From an uncultured Gammaproteobacteria bacterium (lineage in GTDB: Bacteria; Pseudomonadota; Gammaproteobacteria; Arenicellales; CALHMG01), in assembly GCA_938034705.1 (NCBI GenBank), contig CALHMG010000105.1, forward strand, positions 1-41,188: a DNA stretch of 41,188 bases, in the 5' to 3' direction. Below are positions 3,037-30,607 of this stretch, in pieces. The position numbers and the translations under genes are program-made. The first letter of the stretch is position 1, and every line of letters begins with the position of its first letter. Below the pieces are notes generated by a model. The model had not been told where the DNA came from. It worked only from the letters and a program-made list of their open reading frames with translations, and made no database searches.

Positions 3037-4494
3037 ATGAGCCACGACCAAAAGATGCCGCGCGTTTTCGCGTTTGAACATGGCGCAGGTGGCGTCGACG
3101 CGTTTAACGCATTGCGCGCCCGGGCCGACGCAGCGTCCGCGCCGCTGGTCACCTTTCGAGGGCGAAACGGCGAAGGATGGGATGAAACCTGCGACCGGGC
3201 GGATGTGGTTGTCGGCCTTGATGTTGACCATCCGGAGCGATGTGATCTTGTAACTGCAGAACCGTTTTCGCTGTCCGACTACAATCCGCTGGGCTGGCGA
3301 AGCGCTTCAAGCGCGAGTTTTGTCATGATCGATCAGATCGGCAACTCGGCTACCCCCGAAGCGCTGGCATCGTTTATTCGCTACTCCGGCAGGTCCGTCA
3401 CGCTCTACAGTCATGACCCGAACGCGGCAGCGGCCGGCGCGGAGCATGGTTATACGGTGAGGCCGTTTGTTGACGATGCCACGCAGACCGCCCGGCAGAT
3501 GCGTCAGTATCGCGCGGTCATCGACCACGCCAATCTTTATTCGACCCCGGGTCAGCGTGCGTCCTGGCTCGTGCGGCTCGCGGCCGCGGGCGTGCCGGTG
3601 GTTTTGCTTGATGATGCGAGCGACATCAGCGAGCTGATAAGTCCGGAACTGATGGCTTGCTTCAGGGAGACGACGTTTGATGTGGTCCGCGACGCCGGCC
3701 TGCGACGGGCTATCGCGTTCAGAACGGCGCGTGCGAGCATGAAACATCACAGCTTCGCGGCGCTGTGGCGTGAGGTTGAATCCATCACCGGCGTTGAACT
3801 GCTGGCTCCTGAAACCATCAGCGTTCTGGCCGTGACACGGCGGCCGGAGCTGATCGAACATATCGCACACCAGCTGAGCATGCAGACCTATCCTCACCTG
3901 GAAACCGTGCTGGTAACTCACGGACGTGAGGAAGAGTTCAACGCCGCTCTGGCGACTGTCTCGTCGCCGCTGCCGAACTGCAAGCTGATTCGCGCGCCCG
4001 AAGACCTCAACCTCGGGGAGTGTCTCAATCTGGCACTGGACCAGGCGACGGGTACGTTCGTATCAAAGTTCGACGACGACGATATCTATGATCAGGATCA
4101 TTTCTGGGATCTGGTGCTGGCGCACGAATATTCAGGCGCAACGCTGGTCGGCAAGCCGGCGGAATACATCTACTTCGGTGACGTGGACGTCACCGTGCGC
4201 CGGGCTCTGGATGGCGTCGAGGGGTACGACGACAAGCAGGCGGGTGGCACGCTGTTTTTGCTGCGTGACGACGCGCTCAAGGTCGGTGGCTGGCACAACG
4301 ATCCCCGGGAGATCGATCGACGACTGATCGGCGATGTCTACTACGCCGGCGGAAACTGCTATCGGATTCAGGGCCTGGGCTTTGTTCTGAACCGACACGG
4401 TCAGGGTCATACCTGGGATGTCGGTCAAAGCTTTTTTGTGCCGATCGAGCCCAACATGAAAGGGCTCGCGCTGGATCAGGCTGGATTCTCCTGA
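3037..4494 (+). CDS. Two-part glycosyltransferase: GT-B-like N-terminus, GT2 C-terminus
   Basis: A 485-aa protein. The C-terminal part from about residue 260 is a family 2 domain: ISVLAVTRRP opens it, LNLGECLNLAL and a DDDD metal cluster at 346-349 follow, then a substrate loop with GGWHND. The N-terminal 250 residues look like the end of a GT-B (group 1 or CgeB-like) transferase: an acidic or polar segment, then ASWLVRLAAAGVPVVLLDD near 175-193 and a helical tail ending in WREVESITG, which matches how such domains usually finish. It follows the coiled-coil GT2 gene closely. Its last 19 bases overlap the end of the convergent P-loop gene. It probably adds sugars to the same polymer; donor and acceptor cannot be deduced. 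Confidence 0.85.
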   Translation: MSHDQKMPRVFAFEHGAGGVDAFNALRARADAASAPLVTFRGRNGEGWDETCDRADVVVGLDVDHPERCDLVTAEPFSLSDYNPLGWRSASSASFVMIDQIGNSATPEALASFIRYSGRSVTLYSHDPNAAAAGAEHGYTVRPFVDDATQTARQMRQYRAVIDHANLYSTPGQRASWLVRLAAAGVPVVLLDDASDISELISPELMACFRETTFDVVRDAGLRRAIAFRTARASMKHHSFAALWREVESITGVELLAPETISVLAVTRRPELIEHIAHQLSMQTYPHLETVLVTHGREEEFNAALATVSSPLPNCKLIRAPEDLNLGECLNLALDQATGTFVSKFDDDDIYDQDHFWDLVLAHEYSGATLVGKPAEYIYFGDVDVTVRRALDGVEGYDDKQAGGTLFLLRDDALKVGGWHNDPREIDRRLIGDVYYAGGNCYRIQGLGFVLNRHGQGHTWDVGQSFFVPIEPNMKGLALDQAGFS

Positions 4495-23505: not shown

Positions 23506-24417
23506 GTGATGAACAATAACGATTTCCAATTCAAACTGAAGCCGTTGCACCTTGCGGTTGCAACAGCACTGGTTGGCGTAACCAGCGGCCCGATTATGGC
23601 GACCGAGACGTCGACGTTTACCGCTGAACGCATTATCGTCGCCAGCTGCAACCCCTGTGCGGCAGCGAAGTGCAATCCATGCGCGGCCAAATGCAACCCC
23701 TGCGCGGCTGCCAAGTGCAATCCGTGTGCGGCTAAATGCAATCCTTGTGCCGCAAAGAAAAAGAAGTGCAATCCCTGTGGAGCGTGTAATCCGTGCGCTG
23801 CCAAATGCAATCCGTGCGCAGCCAAGAAGTGCAATCCGTGTGCGGCAAGCGCGTGTAACCCTTGCAACCCCTGCAATCCCTGTGGCGCTGCTGCTGCCGT
23901 AAACCCCTGCGCGGTCAAGCGTAACCCCTGTCACCCAACCTACAAGTGCACACCCTGTGGCCTCGCCGAGCTGGGCAAAGCGCTGTGGGCCGATCCAAAG
24001 TTCAGCACTAACGGGCTGGCTTGCGCGACGTGCCACGTCGGCGGACAGGCTGCTTTCCTTCCGACTTTTGCCCAGGCCTACCCGCACCCGGTTGCGATGG
24101 CCACCGCGATTGGCATCAAGGAAATGACGGCAGAAGAGATGGTGCAGTTCTGTCTCGTTCAGCCGATGGCTTCCAAGACACTGGCGTGGGACTCGAAAGA
24201 GCTCGCTGCACTTACCGCATACACGCTTGAAGTTCAGAAGGGCTTTAACCCCTGTGCGGCTACAGGCGGCGGCTGTAATCCGTGTGCTGCCAAATGCAAC
24301 CCATGCGCGGCCAAGTGCAATCCGTGTGCGGCCAAGAAGTGCAACCCATGCGCCGCCAAGTGCAATCCTTGTGGTGCCAAGTGCAACCCATGCGCGGCTA
24401 AGAAGACAACAGGCTGA
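23506..24417 (+). CDS. Exported CNPC-repeat protein with an embedded c-type haem motif
   Basis: A 303-aa protein with about 42 cysteines (14%). A signal peptide spans residues 1 to about 32 (lysines at 10 and 12, hydrophobic core, cleavage probably after IMA). Residues 48-151 carry 12 CNPC motifs, mostly as CNPCAAK or CNPCAAAK, plus NPC and CTPC variants. Residues about 152-245 form a small cytochrome-like domain: [12 protein letters not shown], then CATCH at 173-177, similar to the N-terminal haem segment of MauG/CcpA-type proteins; M221 or another downstream Met may be the axial ligand. Residues 257-299 carry 6 more CNPC units. The periplasmic location would permit haem attachment. Binding of Cu, Zn or other soft metals by the repeats is plausible. 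Function unknown. Confidence 0.88.
23647..23958 (+). repeat. Coding tandem repeat array 1 (CNPC units)
   Basis: Twelve CNPC motifs (three of them overlapping in [10 protein letters not shown]) encoded by units of mainly 21 or 24 bp. Units differ at synonymous positions (AAC/AAT, CCC/CCA/CCG/CCT, TGT/TGC, GCC/GCT/GCA) while the amino acids stay fixed, pointing to selection on the protein rather than recent duplication alone. Confidence 0.9.
24274..24405 (+). repeat. Coding tandem repeat array 2 (CNPC units)
   Basis: Six [14 protein letters not shown] units after the haem domain, again 21-24 bp long and varied at third positions. A single NPC (residues 248-250) leads into the array. The same motif on both sides of the haem domain makes a repeat-haem-repeat architecture. 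Confidence 0.9.
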
Positions 24418-26947: not shown

Positions 26948-27475
26948 TCAATGCACAGCCAAAGTACGGTTAACGGCCACCCACTGGTGTCGCTGGGCTC
27001 CTACCCGAGCGCTTTGGGAATAGCTTTCGGCCTCGTAGTACTGCGACAGCTTGCTTGCGGAATATGGCTCTGGATAGCGGTTGTCAAACACCCAGTCTTC
27101 ACCATTGTGGTCAGTTGCGACAGCGACAACGTGTTCTCTGGGTGCAACCGGAGCCAGAACATTTCTGTATCGGACTGAATACCCCAGTGAGGTGAGTCGA
27201 TCGTGAATAATTCGCGAGTACGTCATGCAGTTGCCGATCGCTTTGCCGAAGATGTCAACGCGTGGCGGCCACGTCGGCTTGGTCTTGTTGTCATATCGAA
27301 AGTGTTTTTTGACATCTTTGGAGACATGAACAAAGGTCTGTGGCGCCTGGCCAGCGGCGAGGTTCGACAGTGATATCGCTGCATCGCTGTTCCTGTGGGT
27401 GTGGGCGCAGCCGGTTGAAAAAATGATAACTACAAAAGAAAGTTGAAGACGGGCGAGACGATTAGTCAGGGTCAT
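26948..27475 (-). CDS. Transglutaminase-like cysteine peptidase (C93/BTLCP type) lipoprotein
   Basis: A 175-aa putative lipoprotein. Residues 1-23 form a signal peptide ending FSTGC23, an acceptable though not ideal lipobox. A Cys-His-Asp triad typical of bacterial transglutaminase-like peptidases is visible: C83 in IGNCMTYSR, H115 in PREHVVAVA and D131 in DWVFDNRY. LapG, the c-di-GMP-controlled periplasmic protease that clips adhesins, belongs to the same family, but no LapD or adhesin gene lies nearby. It precedes no obvious partner on its strand. Most likely periplasmic and membrane-anchored. Confidence 0.8.
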   Translation of the reverse strand: MTLTNRLARLQLSFVVIIFSTGCAHTHRNSDAAISLSNLAAGQAPQTFVHVSKDVKKHFRYDNKTKPTWPPRVDIFGKAIGNCMTYSRIIHDRLTSLGYSVRYRNVLAPVAPREHVVAVATDHNGEDWVFDNRYPEPYSASKLSQYYEAESYSQSARVGAQRHQWVAVNRTLAVH

Positions 27476-27687: not shown

Positions 27688-28482
27688 TCAGGCCGTCGCG
27701 ACGAACTTTTGCAGATCGGTCGTTTCGAGCGACTTCTTGAATCTGGATACGGCACGACCCAACTCCGCAAGAAGCTTTACCAGATCGTCGTCGGAGGCAC
27801 CAAATCGGCAAGCGGTTTCCAGGTCTTCGGCAGACTGGGCAATACGTGCAGCTCCTAGAGCCTTCGCGCAACCCTTGATCGAGTGTGCGCCCATCGCAAT
27901 ATCCTCGGAACCGGTACCGATGGATGTCTGAATCCATCCATGATTGTTTTCGAGTTCGTTCCGAAACAGTGTCATCGCTTCCTTGGTGTTTTCGGCACCA
28001 ATGTCAGAGATGAGCTGTTTTACAGTCTCGGCATCGAGTTCACCGTCCTGGTCTTCTTCGCCAAAATTGAATGTCATTTTGAACGTAGAGCCTGACGCAG
28101 AACTGGAGCCGACGTCTTGACCGGTGATGACGGCCTTGAGCCGATCGGAGGAAATAGGTCGGGTCAAAATCTGATCGACGCCAGCCTTGAGGAACTGTTC
28201 GTGCTCACCCATCAAAGCGCTGGTGGTAACGCCGACGATTCGTGCGGAGTTCGCGACTCCTGTTGAACCGCGCAGGGCCGCTATGAACTCAAGACCGTCC
28301 ATGTCCGCAGGCCGCAGATTTACGATCAGCGTGCTGAATGACTCGGTCTCGAGTATTTTCAGCGCCTGCATCGCTGTTACGACGGTTTGAATTTCTACAT
28401 CGAGTCCGTCGAGAATGGACTCGAGCAGGTGAACATTGCTGTGACTGTGATCGACGCACAGTACTTTTCGAAGTGTGGTCAT
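27688..28482 (-). CDS. Pseudo-receiver-HPt phosphotransfer protein
   Basis: A 264-aa two-domain signalling protein. Residues about 5-120 have a CheY-like receiver fold, but the phospho-acceptor Asp is Asn55 (LIVNLRP), the acidic pair is D11-H12 rather than DD/ED, and the conserved Lys is R108 (TRPIS). It therefore probably cannot be phosphorylated normally. Residues about 150-255 form a histidine phosphotransfer domain with the active His200 in GAHSIKGCAKALGA. The C-terminal HPt could accept or donate phosphate in the LuxO relay while the pseudo-receiver mediates contacts. It has GAGGGG 8 nt before the ATG and its own sigma-54 promoter 22 nt upstream. Confidence 0.86.
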   Translation of the reverse strand: MTTLRKVLCVDHSHSNVHLLESILDGLDVEIQTVVTAMQALKILETESFSTLIVNLRPADMDGLEFIAALRGSTGVANSARIVGVTTSALMGEHEQFLKAGVDQILTRPISSDRLKAVITGQDVGSSSASGSTFKMTFNFGEEDQDGELDAETVKQLISDIGAENTKEAMTLFRNELENNHGWIQTSIGTGSEDIAMGAHSIKGCAKALGAARIAQSAEDLETACRFGASDDDLVKLLAELGRAVSRFKKSLETTDLQKFVATA

Positions 28483-28511
28483 TGTGTATTCCCCTCAGAT
28501 TACAACTGGGG

Positions 28512-28532
28512 TGATGCAATGACCGTGCCAAC
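28512..28532 (-). promoter_or_regulatory. Sigma-54 promoter for the pseudo-receiver-HPt gene
   Basis: Read on the minus strand, TTGGCACGGTCATTGCAT matches the consensus YTGGCACG-N4-TTGCW completely. The -24 GG is at 28529-28528 and the -12 GC at 28517-28516, with the required 10 bases between. The predicted start near 28504 gives a leader of about 22 nt containing the GAGGGG ribosome binding site. Confidence 0.85.
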
Positions 28533-28590: not shown

Positions 28591-28623
28591 TGATTCGCAA
28601 ATCGCGTTGCAGATTGCGAATCA
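28591..28623. promoter_or_regulatory. LuxO-box-like dyad, candidate enhancer for the sigma-54 promoter
   Basis: Perfect 10-bp arms TGATTCGCAA and TTGCGAATCA are separated by 13 nt. Within it TTGCA-GAT-TGCGA (28607-28619) matches the LuxO site TTGCA-N3-TGCAA at 9 of 10 positions, and a weaker copy is centred 12 bp away. The site is 84 bp upstream of the -24 element, the usual distance for a sigma-54 activator. The luxO-like gene itself lies 0.5 kb away. Confidence 0.65.
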
Positions 28624-28630
28624 AATTGAT

Positions 28631-29017
28631 TCAAATTGTTTCATGATTAAGAAAGGTGCTGGAATTCAGCGCCTCTATATAACGAGTCGCCTCCTGGCGT
28701 GCGAGGTTGATCTCGGCTTTGAGCTGATCGGGCGTTGCTTTGTTCAGGATGGCCAGCTCGATTTCGTGACAGGCATCAGCGAGCGCCAGCGCGCCGAACG
28801 TTGCGGCTTCACTCTTTAAGACATGGGCCTCGGCACTCACCTCCGAGGGATCAGATACGCAACCTGCAAGTTGTCCAAAACGAGCCTCAACGCCCCCGGC
28901 AAATTCGCGCAAGAGGATGTCGAGGATTTCGGGCGACAGTTCACGCTGCAGCGTTTCGACGGTATCAAGATCCAGAGACACCGGGTTTCGCTGCGGCGCT
29001 AATTGGGTATTGGACAT
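28631..29017 (-). CDS. Histidine phosphotransfer (HPt) protein, LuxU-like
   Basis: A single-domain HPt protein of 128 aa. The active His65 lies in EAHVLKSEAATFGA, followed by the amphipathic helix LADACHEIELA, as in LuxU and other four-helix-bundle phosphotransferases. It would pass phosphate from sensor kinases to the LuxO-like regulator encoded divergently 159 bp away. I use the ATG at 29017 (MSNTQLAPQ); the frame stays open for 31 codons upstream. Downstream on the same strand is the pseudo-receiver-HPt gene with its own promoter. No hybrid kinase is in the window. Confidence 0.85.
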   Translation of the reverse strand: MSNTQLAPQRNPVSLDLDTVETLQRELSPEILDILLREFAGGVEARFGQLAGCVSDPSEVSAEAHVLKSEAATFGALALADACHEIELAILNKATPDQLKAEINLARQEATRYIEALNSSTFLNHETI

Positions 29018-29160
29018 GGTTTCAGTCTGCTCGAAGGGCTTTTGTTCAGAATAGCCTTGCCGTCCTTCACCCGGGGTTGCCCGCCGTATCGGGAGTAAGT
29101 CCCAATCCATGTCACGGCCATCGGCTTAATCGACATTAGGCCTGCGGGCGCAGTATTTGC

Positions 29161-29176: not shown

Positions 29177-30607
29177 ATGGAGAACAACGTTTCACAACAG
29201 ACGGACGTCCTGCTGGTTGAAGACAGCGGAGCACTCACCCGTGTGTACATGGAGTATCTGCGTCCGCTCGATATTAATGTCCGTCAGGTATCGACGGGTC
29301 AGGACGCACTCGATCTGCTCAACCAGGGCGGTCTCGGTGTCGTGCTGCTGGACATCCAGCTACCGGACATGAGCGGTCTGGATATTCTCAAACATATTCA
29401 GGAAAACGACATTCCAACGTCGGTTGTGATTATCACAGCACACGGTTCCGCGGATATTGCGAAGCAGTCTCTGGACCTTGGCGCCGTCGACTTTCTGGAA
29501 AAGCCTTTCTCCGCGGATCGCCTGAGAACGACGGTTAACAACGTTCTTGATCAGCGCAAGCTGCGCTCTATCGTCGAAAGTTTTGAGATAATCACTCGCC
29601 GTGAGTACTGCGGATTTATCGGCAGCTCCATGGCAATGCAAAGTGTCTATCAGATGATTGAAAGTGCTGCCGGCAGTGGCGCTTCAATCTTCGTTACTGG
29701 TGAAAGCGGTACGGGTAAAGAGGTCTGTGCTGAAGCAATTCACACCAAGAGTAAGCGGCGTGACAAGAATTTTGTCGCGCTGAACTGTGCTGCGATTCCG
29801 CGTGACTTGATCGAGAGCGAAATATTCGGCCACGTGAAAGGCGCCTTTACCGGCGCGGTGACAGCGCGCGAGGGCGCCGCAAGTCGCGCTGATGGCGGTA
29901 CGCTCTTTCTCGACGAAATTGCCGAGATGGATATCGACCTGCAGGCAAAGTTGCTTCGATTTATTCAGACAGGAACGTTTCAGAAAGTTGGTGGGTCTAC
30001 GACCGAGAAAGTCGATGTTCGGTTTGTCTGTGCCACCAACCGTAGTCCTCTCGCTGAGGTAGAGGCGGGCCGATTTCGCGAAGACCTTTATTATCGCCTT
30101 CACGTAATTCCGATTGAACTTCCGCCGTTGCGCAGTCGAGATGCAGACGTTCTTGAAATTGGACAGAAGTTTCTGCAGAAGTTCGCGAGTGAAGAGAACA
30201 AGCGCTTTGAAGGGTTTGATGCGCAGGTCAGCGGGATCATGATGTCTTACGGCTGGCCCGGTAACGTTCGGGAACTGCAGAACGTGGTTCGAAACATTGT
30301 CGTCCTTCAGGACGGCGAACTTGTGGAGACCAAACATCTGCCGCCGGCGTTGCAGAAGCAGCAGCCCGACTCGTCCAGGGCTCCCCGGGTTACGGCCCCT
30401 GCAGTGGTCGCGCATAACAGCGCCATGGTCGCCCACGCCGCTTCCGATACCCTCGGCCAAATCAAGCCTCTGTGGCTTGTTGAGCGTGAGGCGATTGAGA
30501 GCGCGATCGACATTTGTGACGGCAATGTACCCAAGGCGGCCGCAATGCTCGGCGTCAGCCCGTCGACGGTTTACCGCAAGCGTCAGGCCTGGGCCGACGC
30601 CAGCTGA
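29177..30607 (+). CDS. luxO: LuxO-type sigma-54-dependent response regulator
   Basis: A 476-aa NtrC-family activator. The receiver has phospho-Asp59 (LLDIQLPD), acidic E15-D16 and K109. The AAA+ domain has Walker A GESGTGKE (175-182), GAFTGA (222-227) for sigma-54 contact, Walker B LFLDE (243-247) and the REDLYYRL arginine region. The C-terminal Fis-type helix-turn-helix is GNVPKAAAMLGVSPSTVYRK. Long segments match Vibrio LuxO as I remember it, such as GFIGSS near 146, ITGESGTGKEVCAEAIH-like sequence, and PLWxxExxAIExAI near the C-terminus, which makes LuxO more likely than NtrC. In vibrios LuxO-P activates Qrr small RNAs; here a sigma-54 promoter with a LuxO-like box lies before the neighbouring phosphotransfer gene. 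Confidence 0.92.
   Translation: MENNVSQQTDVLLVEDSGALTRVYMEYLRPLDINVRQVSTGQDALDLLNQGGLGVVLLDIQLPDMSGLDILKHIQENDIPTSVVIITAHGSADIAKQSLDLGAVDFLEKPFSADRLRTTVNNVLDQRKLRSIVESFEIITRREYCGFIGSSMAMQSVYQMIESAAGSGASIFVTGESGTGKEVCAEAIHTKSKRRDKNFVALNCAAIPRDLIESEIFGHVKGAFTGAVTAREGAASRADGGTLFLDEIAEMDIDLQAKLLRFIQTGTFQKVGGSTTEKVDVRFVCATNRSPLAEVEAGRFREDLYYRLHVIPIELPPLRSRDADVLEIGQKFLQKFASEENKRFEGFDAQVSGIMMSYGWPGNVRELQNVVRNIVVLQDGELVETKHLPPALQKQQPDSSRAPRVTAPAVVAHNSAMVAHAASDTLGQIKPLWLVEREAIESAIDICDGNVPKAAAMLGVSPSTVYRKRQAWADAS

Follow-up and report, generated by a model that had tools for sequence, protein, structure and literature searches.

A pseudo-receiver–HPt protein with a predicted LuxO-type sigma-54 promoter, and its possible role in feedback on a LuxO-type phosphorelay

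The 41,188-nucleotide stretch of DNA analyzed here (the window) encodes a 264-aa protein in which a receiver domain that has lost key catalytic residues is joined to an HPt domain that has kept its phospho-histidine. Judged from its sequence the protein is real and unusual, and it comes with a strong regulatory lead: its gene is preceded by a predicted sigma-54 promoter of the LuxO type, and a LuxO-family activator is encoded close by. We propose an inducible accessory role for it, with feedback on the LuxO-type phosphorelay, and regard this proposal as evenly poised. A more specific version is more tentative, and we put it somewhat short of an even chance: the clearest sigma-54 target of the LuxO-family regulator might be a protein that brakes or rewires the regulator's own phosphorelay, the dead receiver offering an unchanging docking face and the live HPt draining phosphate. 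Vibrio uses the same promoter type for its Qrr RNAs; here it would drive a feedback arm made of protein. The features concerned are these:

27688–28482, minus strand: pseudo-receiver–HPt gene, 264 aa, with its ATG at the 28482 end
28491–28496, minus strand: Shine–Dalgarno-like GAGGGG, separated from the ATG by 8 nt, read from the sequence
28515–28530, minus strand: sigma-54 −24/−12 element TGGCACGGTCATTGCA, 48 nt from element start to ATG
28591–28623, no strand assigned: inverted repeat TGATTCGCAA…TTGCGAATCA, overlapping the LuxO-type box, a possible second half-site, read from the sequence
28607–28619, minus strand: LuxO-type enhancer box TCGCAATCTGCAA, differing from TTGCANNNTGCAA at one position and lying 89 nt upstream of the sigma-54 element
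28631–29017, minus strand: stand-alone HPt protein, LuxU-like in its presumed role, 128 aa if started at the ATG at 29017 (a longer ORF starts at 29110), His and Lys kept
29177–30607, plus strand, divergent: LuxO-family sigma-54 activator with intact receiver, AAA+ domain and Fis-type HTH

Pfam recognizes a receiver at residues 7–119 (Response_reg, PF00072; 50.9 bits against a cutoff of 30.2) and an HPt domain at residues 170–246 (Hpt, PF01627; 32.8 bits against 24.6), with a linker at about 120–150 between them. An AlphaFold2 model made from an input of 55 sequences (mean pLDDT 88.5, pTM 0.83) has a (beta-alpha)5 domain and a helical HPt domain, both confident, and a low-confidence linker. 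Among the 50 matches listed in a search of PDB folds, good superpositions are limited to the receiver half. The first-pass annotation had described just such a fusion, which both Pfam scores and the two modeled folds bear out, and had singled out D11-H12, N55, R108 and HPt His200; read from the translation and the alignment, every one of these residues is correct. The codon-position GC of the ORF, 0.59/0.42/0.59, resembles that of neighboring genes.

The receiver has D11 and keeps T86, and H12 occupies the position of a Mg ligand, N55 that of the phospho-Asp and R108 that of the Lys. A domain recognized by PF00072 with at least one of the five catalytic residues missing, as here, is a pseudo-receiver, a class that makes up about 6% of bacterial receivers according to a review (PMC12632262). 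The other half of the protein is an HPt domain proper, a PF01627 match with its phospho-histidine, H200, and with K203 also kept. Of 54 REC–HPt tails aligned over both domains—a set picked by similarity (E ≤ 1e-4, alignment spanning the receiver to beyond the HPt histidine) and therefore no census of all receivers—every one has the five catalytic positions intact, and only the 264-aa protein departs from this. A looser set of 103 BLAST hits, which admitted matches to the receiver alone, has D at position 55 in 101 cases and K at position 108 in 101. Substitutions in the catalytic pocket affect D12, D55 and K108, plus M58, P59 and A87; outside the pocket G28 and G37 are replaced too. The protein keeps L8, N16, G63, P109 and H200, none of which varies in the comparison set. 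On these alignments the alteration of the pocket exceeds chance and, because every one of the aligned tails is intact, we regard this receiver as an outlier, very probably one that cannot be phosphorylated. The earlier reading, of a receiver incapable of taking phosphate attached to a working HPt, is thus supported by sequence and model, with the qualification that the HPt is an apparently working one.

The gap between the stand-alone HPt gene and the 264-aa ORF holds a perfect sigma-54 core, TGGCACG-N4-TTGCA. The core, at 28530–28515, was recognized by eye from the sigma-54 consensus, and the LuxO-type box lies at 28619–28607. The LuxO box consensus is given as TTGCAWWWTGCAA in PMC10162802, and LuxO ChIP sites in PMC10328515 agree with it. 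A −24/−12 element with a TTGCAWWWTGCAA-like box upstream constitutes, by sequence, a predicted LuxO-type sigma-54 promoter. The strict core matches once in the 41 kb window, against 0.04 expected, and for a pair of box and core the expectation is 0.03 per 41 kb, a value simulated from the window's own dinucleotides and approximate for other loci. Two gapped patterns drawn up after this promoter had been seen, one of box plus core and one with a half-box, each match once in the 5.03 Mb host genome, at this promoter, and their reversed-pattern controls score 0. The half-box pattern, run across 18 genomes, returned 14 rows and its control 2; three of the 14 represent a single site (G242 C36), which leaves 12 distinct sites, 6 of them with a box of at most one mismatch. 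A link through this promoter to the neighboring LuxO-type sigma-54 activator is, by sequence, well supported, and the gene is the clearest predicted LuxO-type target found in the host genome. The bare strict core was dropped as evidence, as it matches 3 times genome-wide and 5 times in the reversed control. A second strict sigma-54 element, with a LuxO-like box of two mismatches 98 nt upstream, occurs on another host contig (G000 C155:183–198, L175); it points towards the contig end, and no clear gene was seen there. An Rfam scan of the 41 kb window found nothing.

The two neighbors named in the list are less easily labeled. The stand-alone HPt gene, which sits upstream of the 264-aa ORF on the same strand, reaches 25.7 bits with the NCBIfam LuxU model against a cutoff of 140, so that the name 'LuxU-like' given to its product at first pass is a weak one. 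For the activator the best NCBIfam model is LuxO, at 657.5 bits, with the next model at 390.7; the equivalog cutoff of 800 is not reached, and we therefore call the protein LuxO-family rather than LuxO.

Relatives of the LuxO-type protein, the host genome included, number 2 among 60 genomes at E ≤ 1e-100 and 17 among 369 genomes at E ≤ 1e-105. At seven of the 17 loci (L093, L112, L114, L115, L116, L118 and L121) a neighboring kinase aligns with the 264-aa protein through H200, the alignment beginning within the receiver in L093 and L116; in L120 the HPt query finds a match, and in L117 luxO has a separate HPt gene next to it. Pairs of box and sigma-54 element occur at six loci. They precede a PhnD plus hybrid-kinase operon in L093, a STAS-like protein (judged by eye) in L112, luxO itself in L113 and L121, and a protein taken by eye for a polysaccharide exporter in L120; the pair in L116, located where an ORF begins, is doubtful. 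L125 has two boxes, with a weaker sigma-54 core, before H-NOX and luxO. Given the genes that lie behind them—hybrid kinase, luxO, H-NOX with luxO—LuxO-type promoters at these loci would often seem to drive parts of the relay. In L118 the PhnD-like, hybrid-kinase and luxO genes are directly preceded by a small gene for an intact single receiver (3640–4026), which itself has a weak sigma-54 element and a LuxO-type box upstream.

No orthologue of the 264-aa protein was found among relatives (60 genomes), the class (369), the order (109), or the genome-contig, viral-contig and plasmid sets, which yielded receivers and REC–HPt tails of about 20–35% identity; its H/N/R pocket and promoter are known from this one genome. 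Six short REC–HPt candidates were examined. Five run into a contig end and are therefore probably kinase fragments; L162, which starts 87 nt from a contig end and has an intact receiver, may, to go by its sequence, be a real stand-alone REC–HPt protein. A quick tree placed the 264-aa protein within a nine-row set that includes the tail of a host kinase on C83; a careful tree, with four rows left out (L020, L034, L066 and L040), placed it outside that set. AU tests reject neither grouping, with p 0.431 for the C83 set and 0.114 for the LuxO-linked set, both groups having been named after the first tree was seen. The protein sits on a very long branch, and the trees do not tie it to the kinases of LuxO-type loci. 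Its receiver is similarly distant from LuxO-type and hybrid-kinase receivers (18–25% identity, except 14% to REC1 of C293). The 'DRL' that follows the R/K-P motif is common to this protein and LuxO-type receivers and occurs in 0 of the 54 tails; as a sign of relation to LuxO-type receivers it is only a lead.

The host genome assembly comprises 5.03 Mb in 380 contigs and is 85% complete, so further targets, or the cognate kinase, may be missing from it. It encodes more HPt domains, on contigs C110, C121, C83 and C30, and has 22 HisKA matches, 21 of them above the Pfam cutoff. The HK–REC kinases on C140 and C293 have no HPt of their own. The C140 kinase gene follows a gene for H-NOX (HNOB; G000 C140:194–2130, L171), and its product shares 43% identity, over 415 columns, with the kinase adjoining a luxO relative in G211. 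The H-NOX-associated kinase HqsK of Vibrio feeds LuxU, according to PMC6759604, and input of NO to the LuxO-type relay through the C140 pair is possible.

How might the parts work together? Phosphorylated LuxO-type protein would switch the 264-aa gene on. Since the gene looks like a LuxO-type sigma-54 target, its product would be made whenever the regulator is active and would form a feedback arm. With its receiver fold and its hybrid-kinase-type N16 both retained, the fixed-state receiver would dock on the kinase, the HPt or the LuxO receiver and take no phosphate. H200 would swap phosphate with the receivers of HPt-less HK–REC kinases, one of them the C140 kinase beside H-NOX, and with the LuxO-type receiver, and the net effect would be feedback on the relay. 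The first-pass annotation had imagined a docking module or a phosphate sink that competes with the LuxU-like protein. That idea is plausible, and the promoter, which lies outside the coordinates then considered and was missed, lends it a mechanism.

The same histidine could also work in the opposite sense. As a second HPt, the protein might supply the LuxO-type receiver with phosphate taken from HPt-less hybrid kinases, in positive feedback, and its pseudo-receiver would then be a passive docking surface or a folding leftover. The retained HPt histidine and lysine would suit such an additional branch, as would the HPt-less HK–REC kinases of the host and the hybrid kinases that align through H200 at 7 of the 17 LuxO-type loci. 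But the stand-alone HPt that adjoins the LuxO-type gene already suits the donor role, and an extra donor induced by LuxO would tend to hold the relay in its on state. We think this alternative unlikely, and a brake that acts by competition more likely, because a protein of this kind can compete both for partners and for phosphate.

Two other accounts do away with feedback. The protein might be an effector of the LuxO-type regulator that relays phosphate or binding signals to another pathway rather than back to its own relay. Its gene is, after all, the clearest LuxO-type target found in the host genome, and the C155 element with its two-mismatch box is one further candidate site; yet the gene adjoins relay genes and no partner pathway was identified, and we consider this account quite unlikely. 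Alternatively, the protein might be a decaying relic, the broken-off tail of a hybrid kinase with a degenerated receiver. NCBIfam matches it best to the REC–HPt tail of ArcB (its residues 6–244 against ArcB 527–761, E 2.7e-22), its branch in the tree is long, and the conserved receiver positions that it has lost extend beyond the catalytic ones. A relic would hardly be expected, though, to combine an open frame, a ribosome site and neighbor-like codon-position composition with a predicted sigma-54 promoter and enhancer box, an intact HPt site and a high-confidence fold, and we hold decay to be very unlikely.

The REC–HPt tails of the tripartite hybrid kinases ArcB, BarA and TorS have the same domain order as the 264-aa protein, which differs in having no kinase part and in having lost the receiver catalytic residues that are intact in all 54 tails. 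VieB of Vibrio cholerae is a related precedent and is not known to have an HPt. Its likeness is that of a receiver protein with an auxiliary part in a relay (PMC4352251), but its Asp is intact and used and, by keywords, it has a TPR domain. For feedback the nearest precedent is Osp of Rhodobacter sphaeroides, a receiver-like protein without Mg ligands and Lys that CtrA activates, that inhibits CckA, and that works as D51N (PMC9430884). The 264-aa protein is likewise receiver-like, with Mg-ligand and Lys positions lost, and may, to go by its predicted promoter, be made under the relay's own regulator; Osp is thus a precedent for a feedback logic. Osp differs in being a single domain with its Asp kept and no HPt, and the kinase inhibition that was shown for Osp can only be supposed for the 264-aa protein.

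With the LuxU/LuxO relay and its H-NOX/HqsK branch (PMC6759604) the host shares an HPt and a LuxO-family activator, as well as an H-NOX-linked HK–REC kinase, but both host neighbors fall below the curated LuxO and LuxU cutoffs, and the available part of that paper names no pseudo-receiver–HPt member. The pseudo-receivers of the review cited above resemble ours in being PF00072 domains without key residues and with a non-acidic second Mg ligand; the part of the review at hand makes no mention of fusion to an intact HPt or of LuxO/sigma-54 control, and it describes how bacterial pseudo-receivers are switched on and off as a mystery (PMC12632262). A partial search of the literature found no published description of a stand-alone pseudo-receiver–HPt protein. 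Here a natural fusion has put a dead receiver beside a live HPt, and the predicted promoter points to its likely controller. The system is small and testable, with a single promoter, a single His, a single dead pocket and few candidate partners and, if we are right, it adds feedback at the level of protein to a LuxO-type circuit.

The other ORFs scanned in the window are mostly metabolic. At 26948–27475, adjoining the 264-aa ORF, lies the gene for a 175-aa secreted-looking protein with no Pfam or NCBIfam match, and at 23506–24417 one for a protein, without an NCBIfam match, that consists largely of CNPCAAK-type repeats. Elsewhere, in G397 (contig C75, L178), a perfect LuxO box and a sigma-54-like element stand at the start of a secreted-looking protein of about 500 aa.
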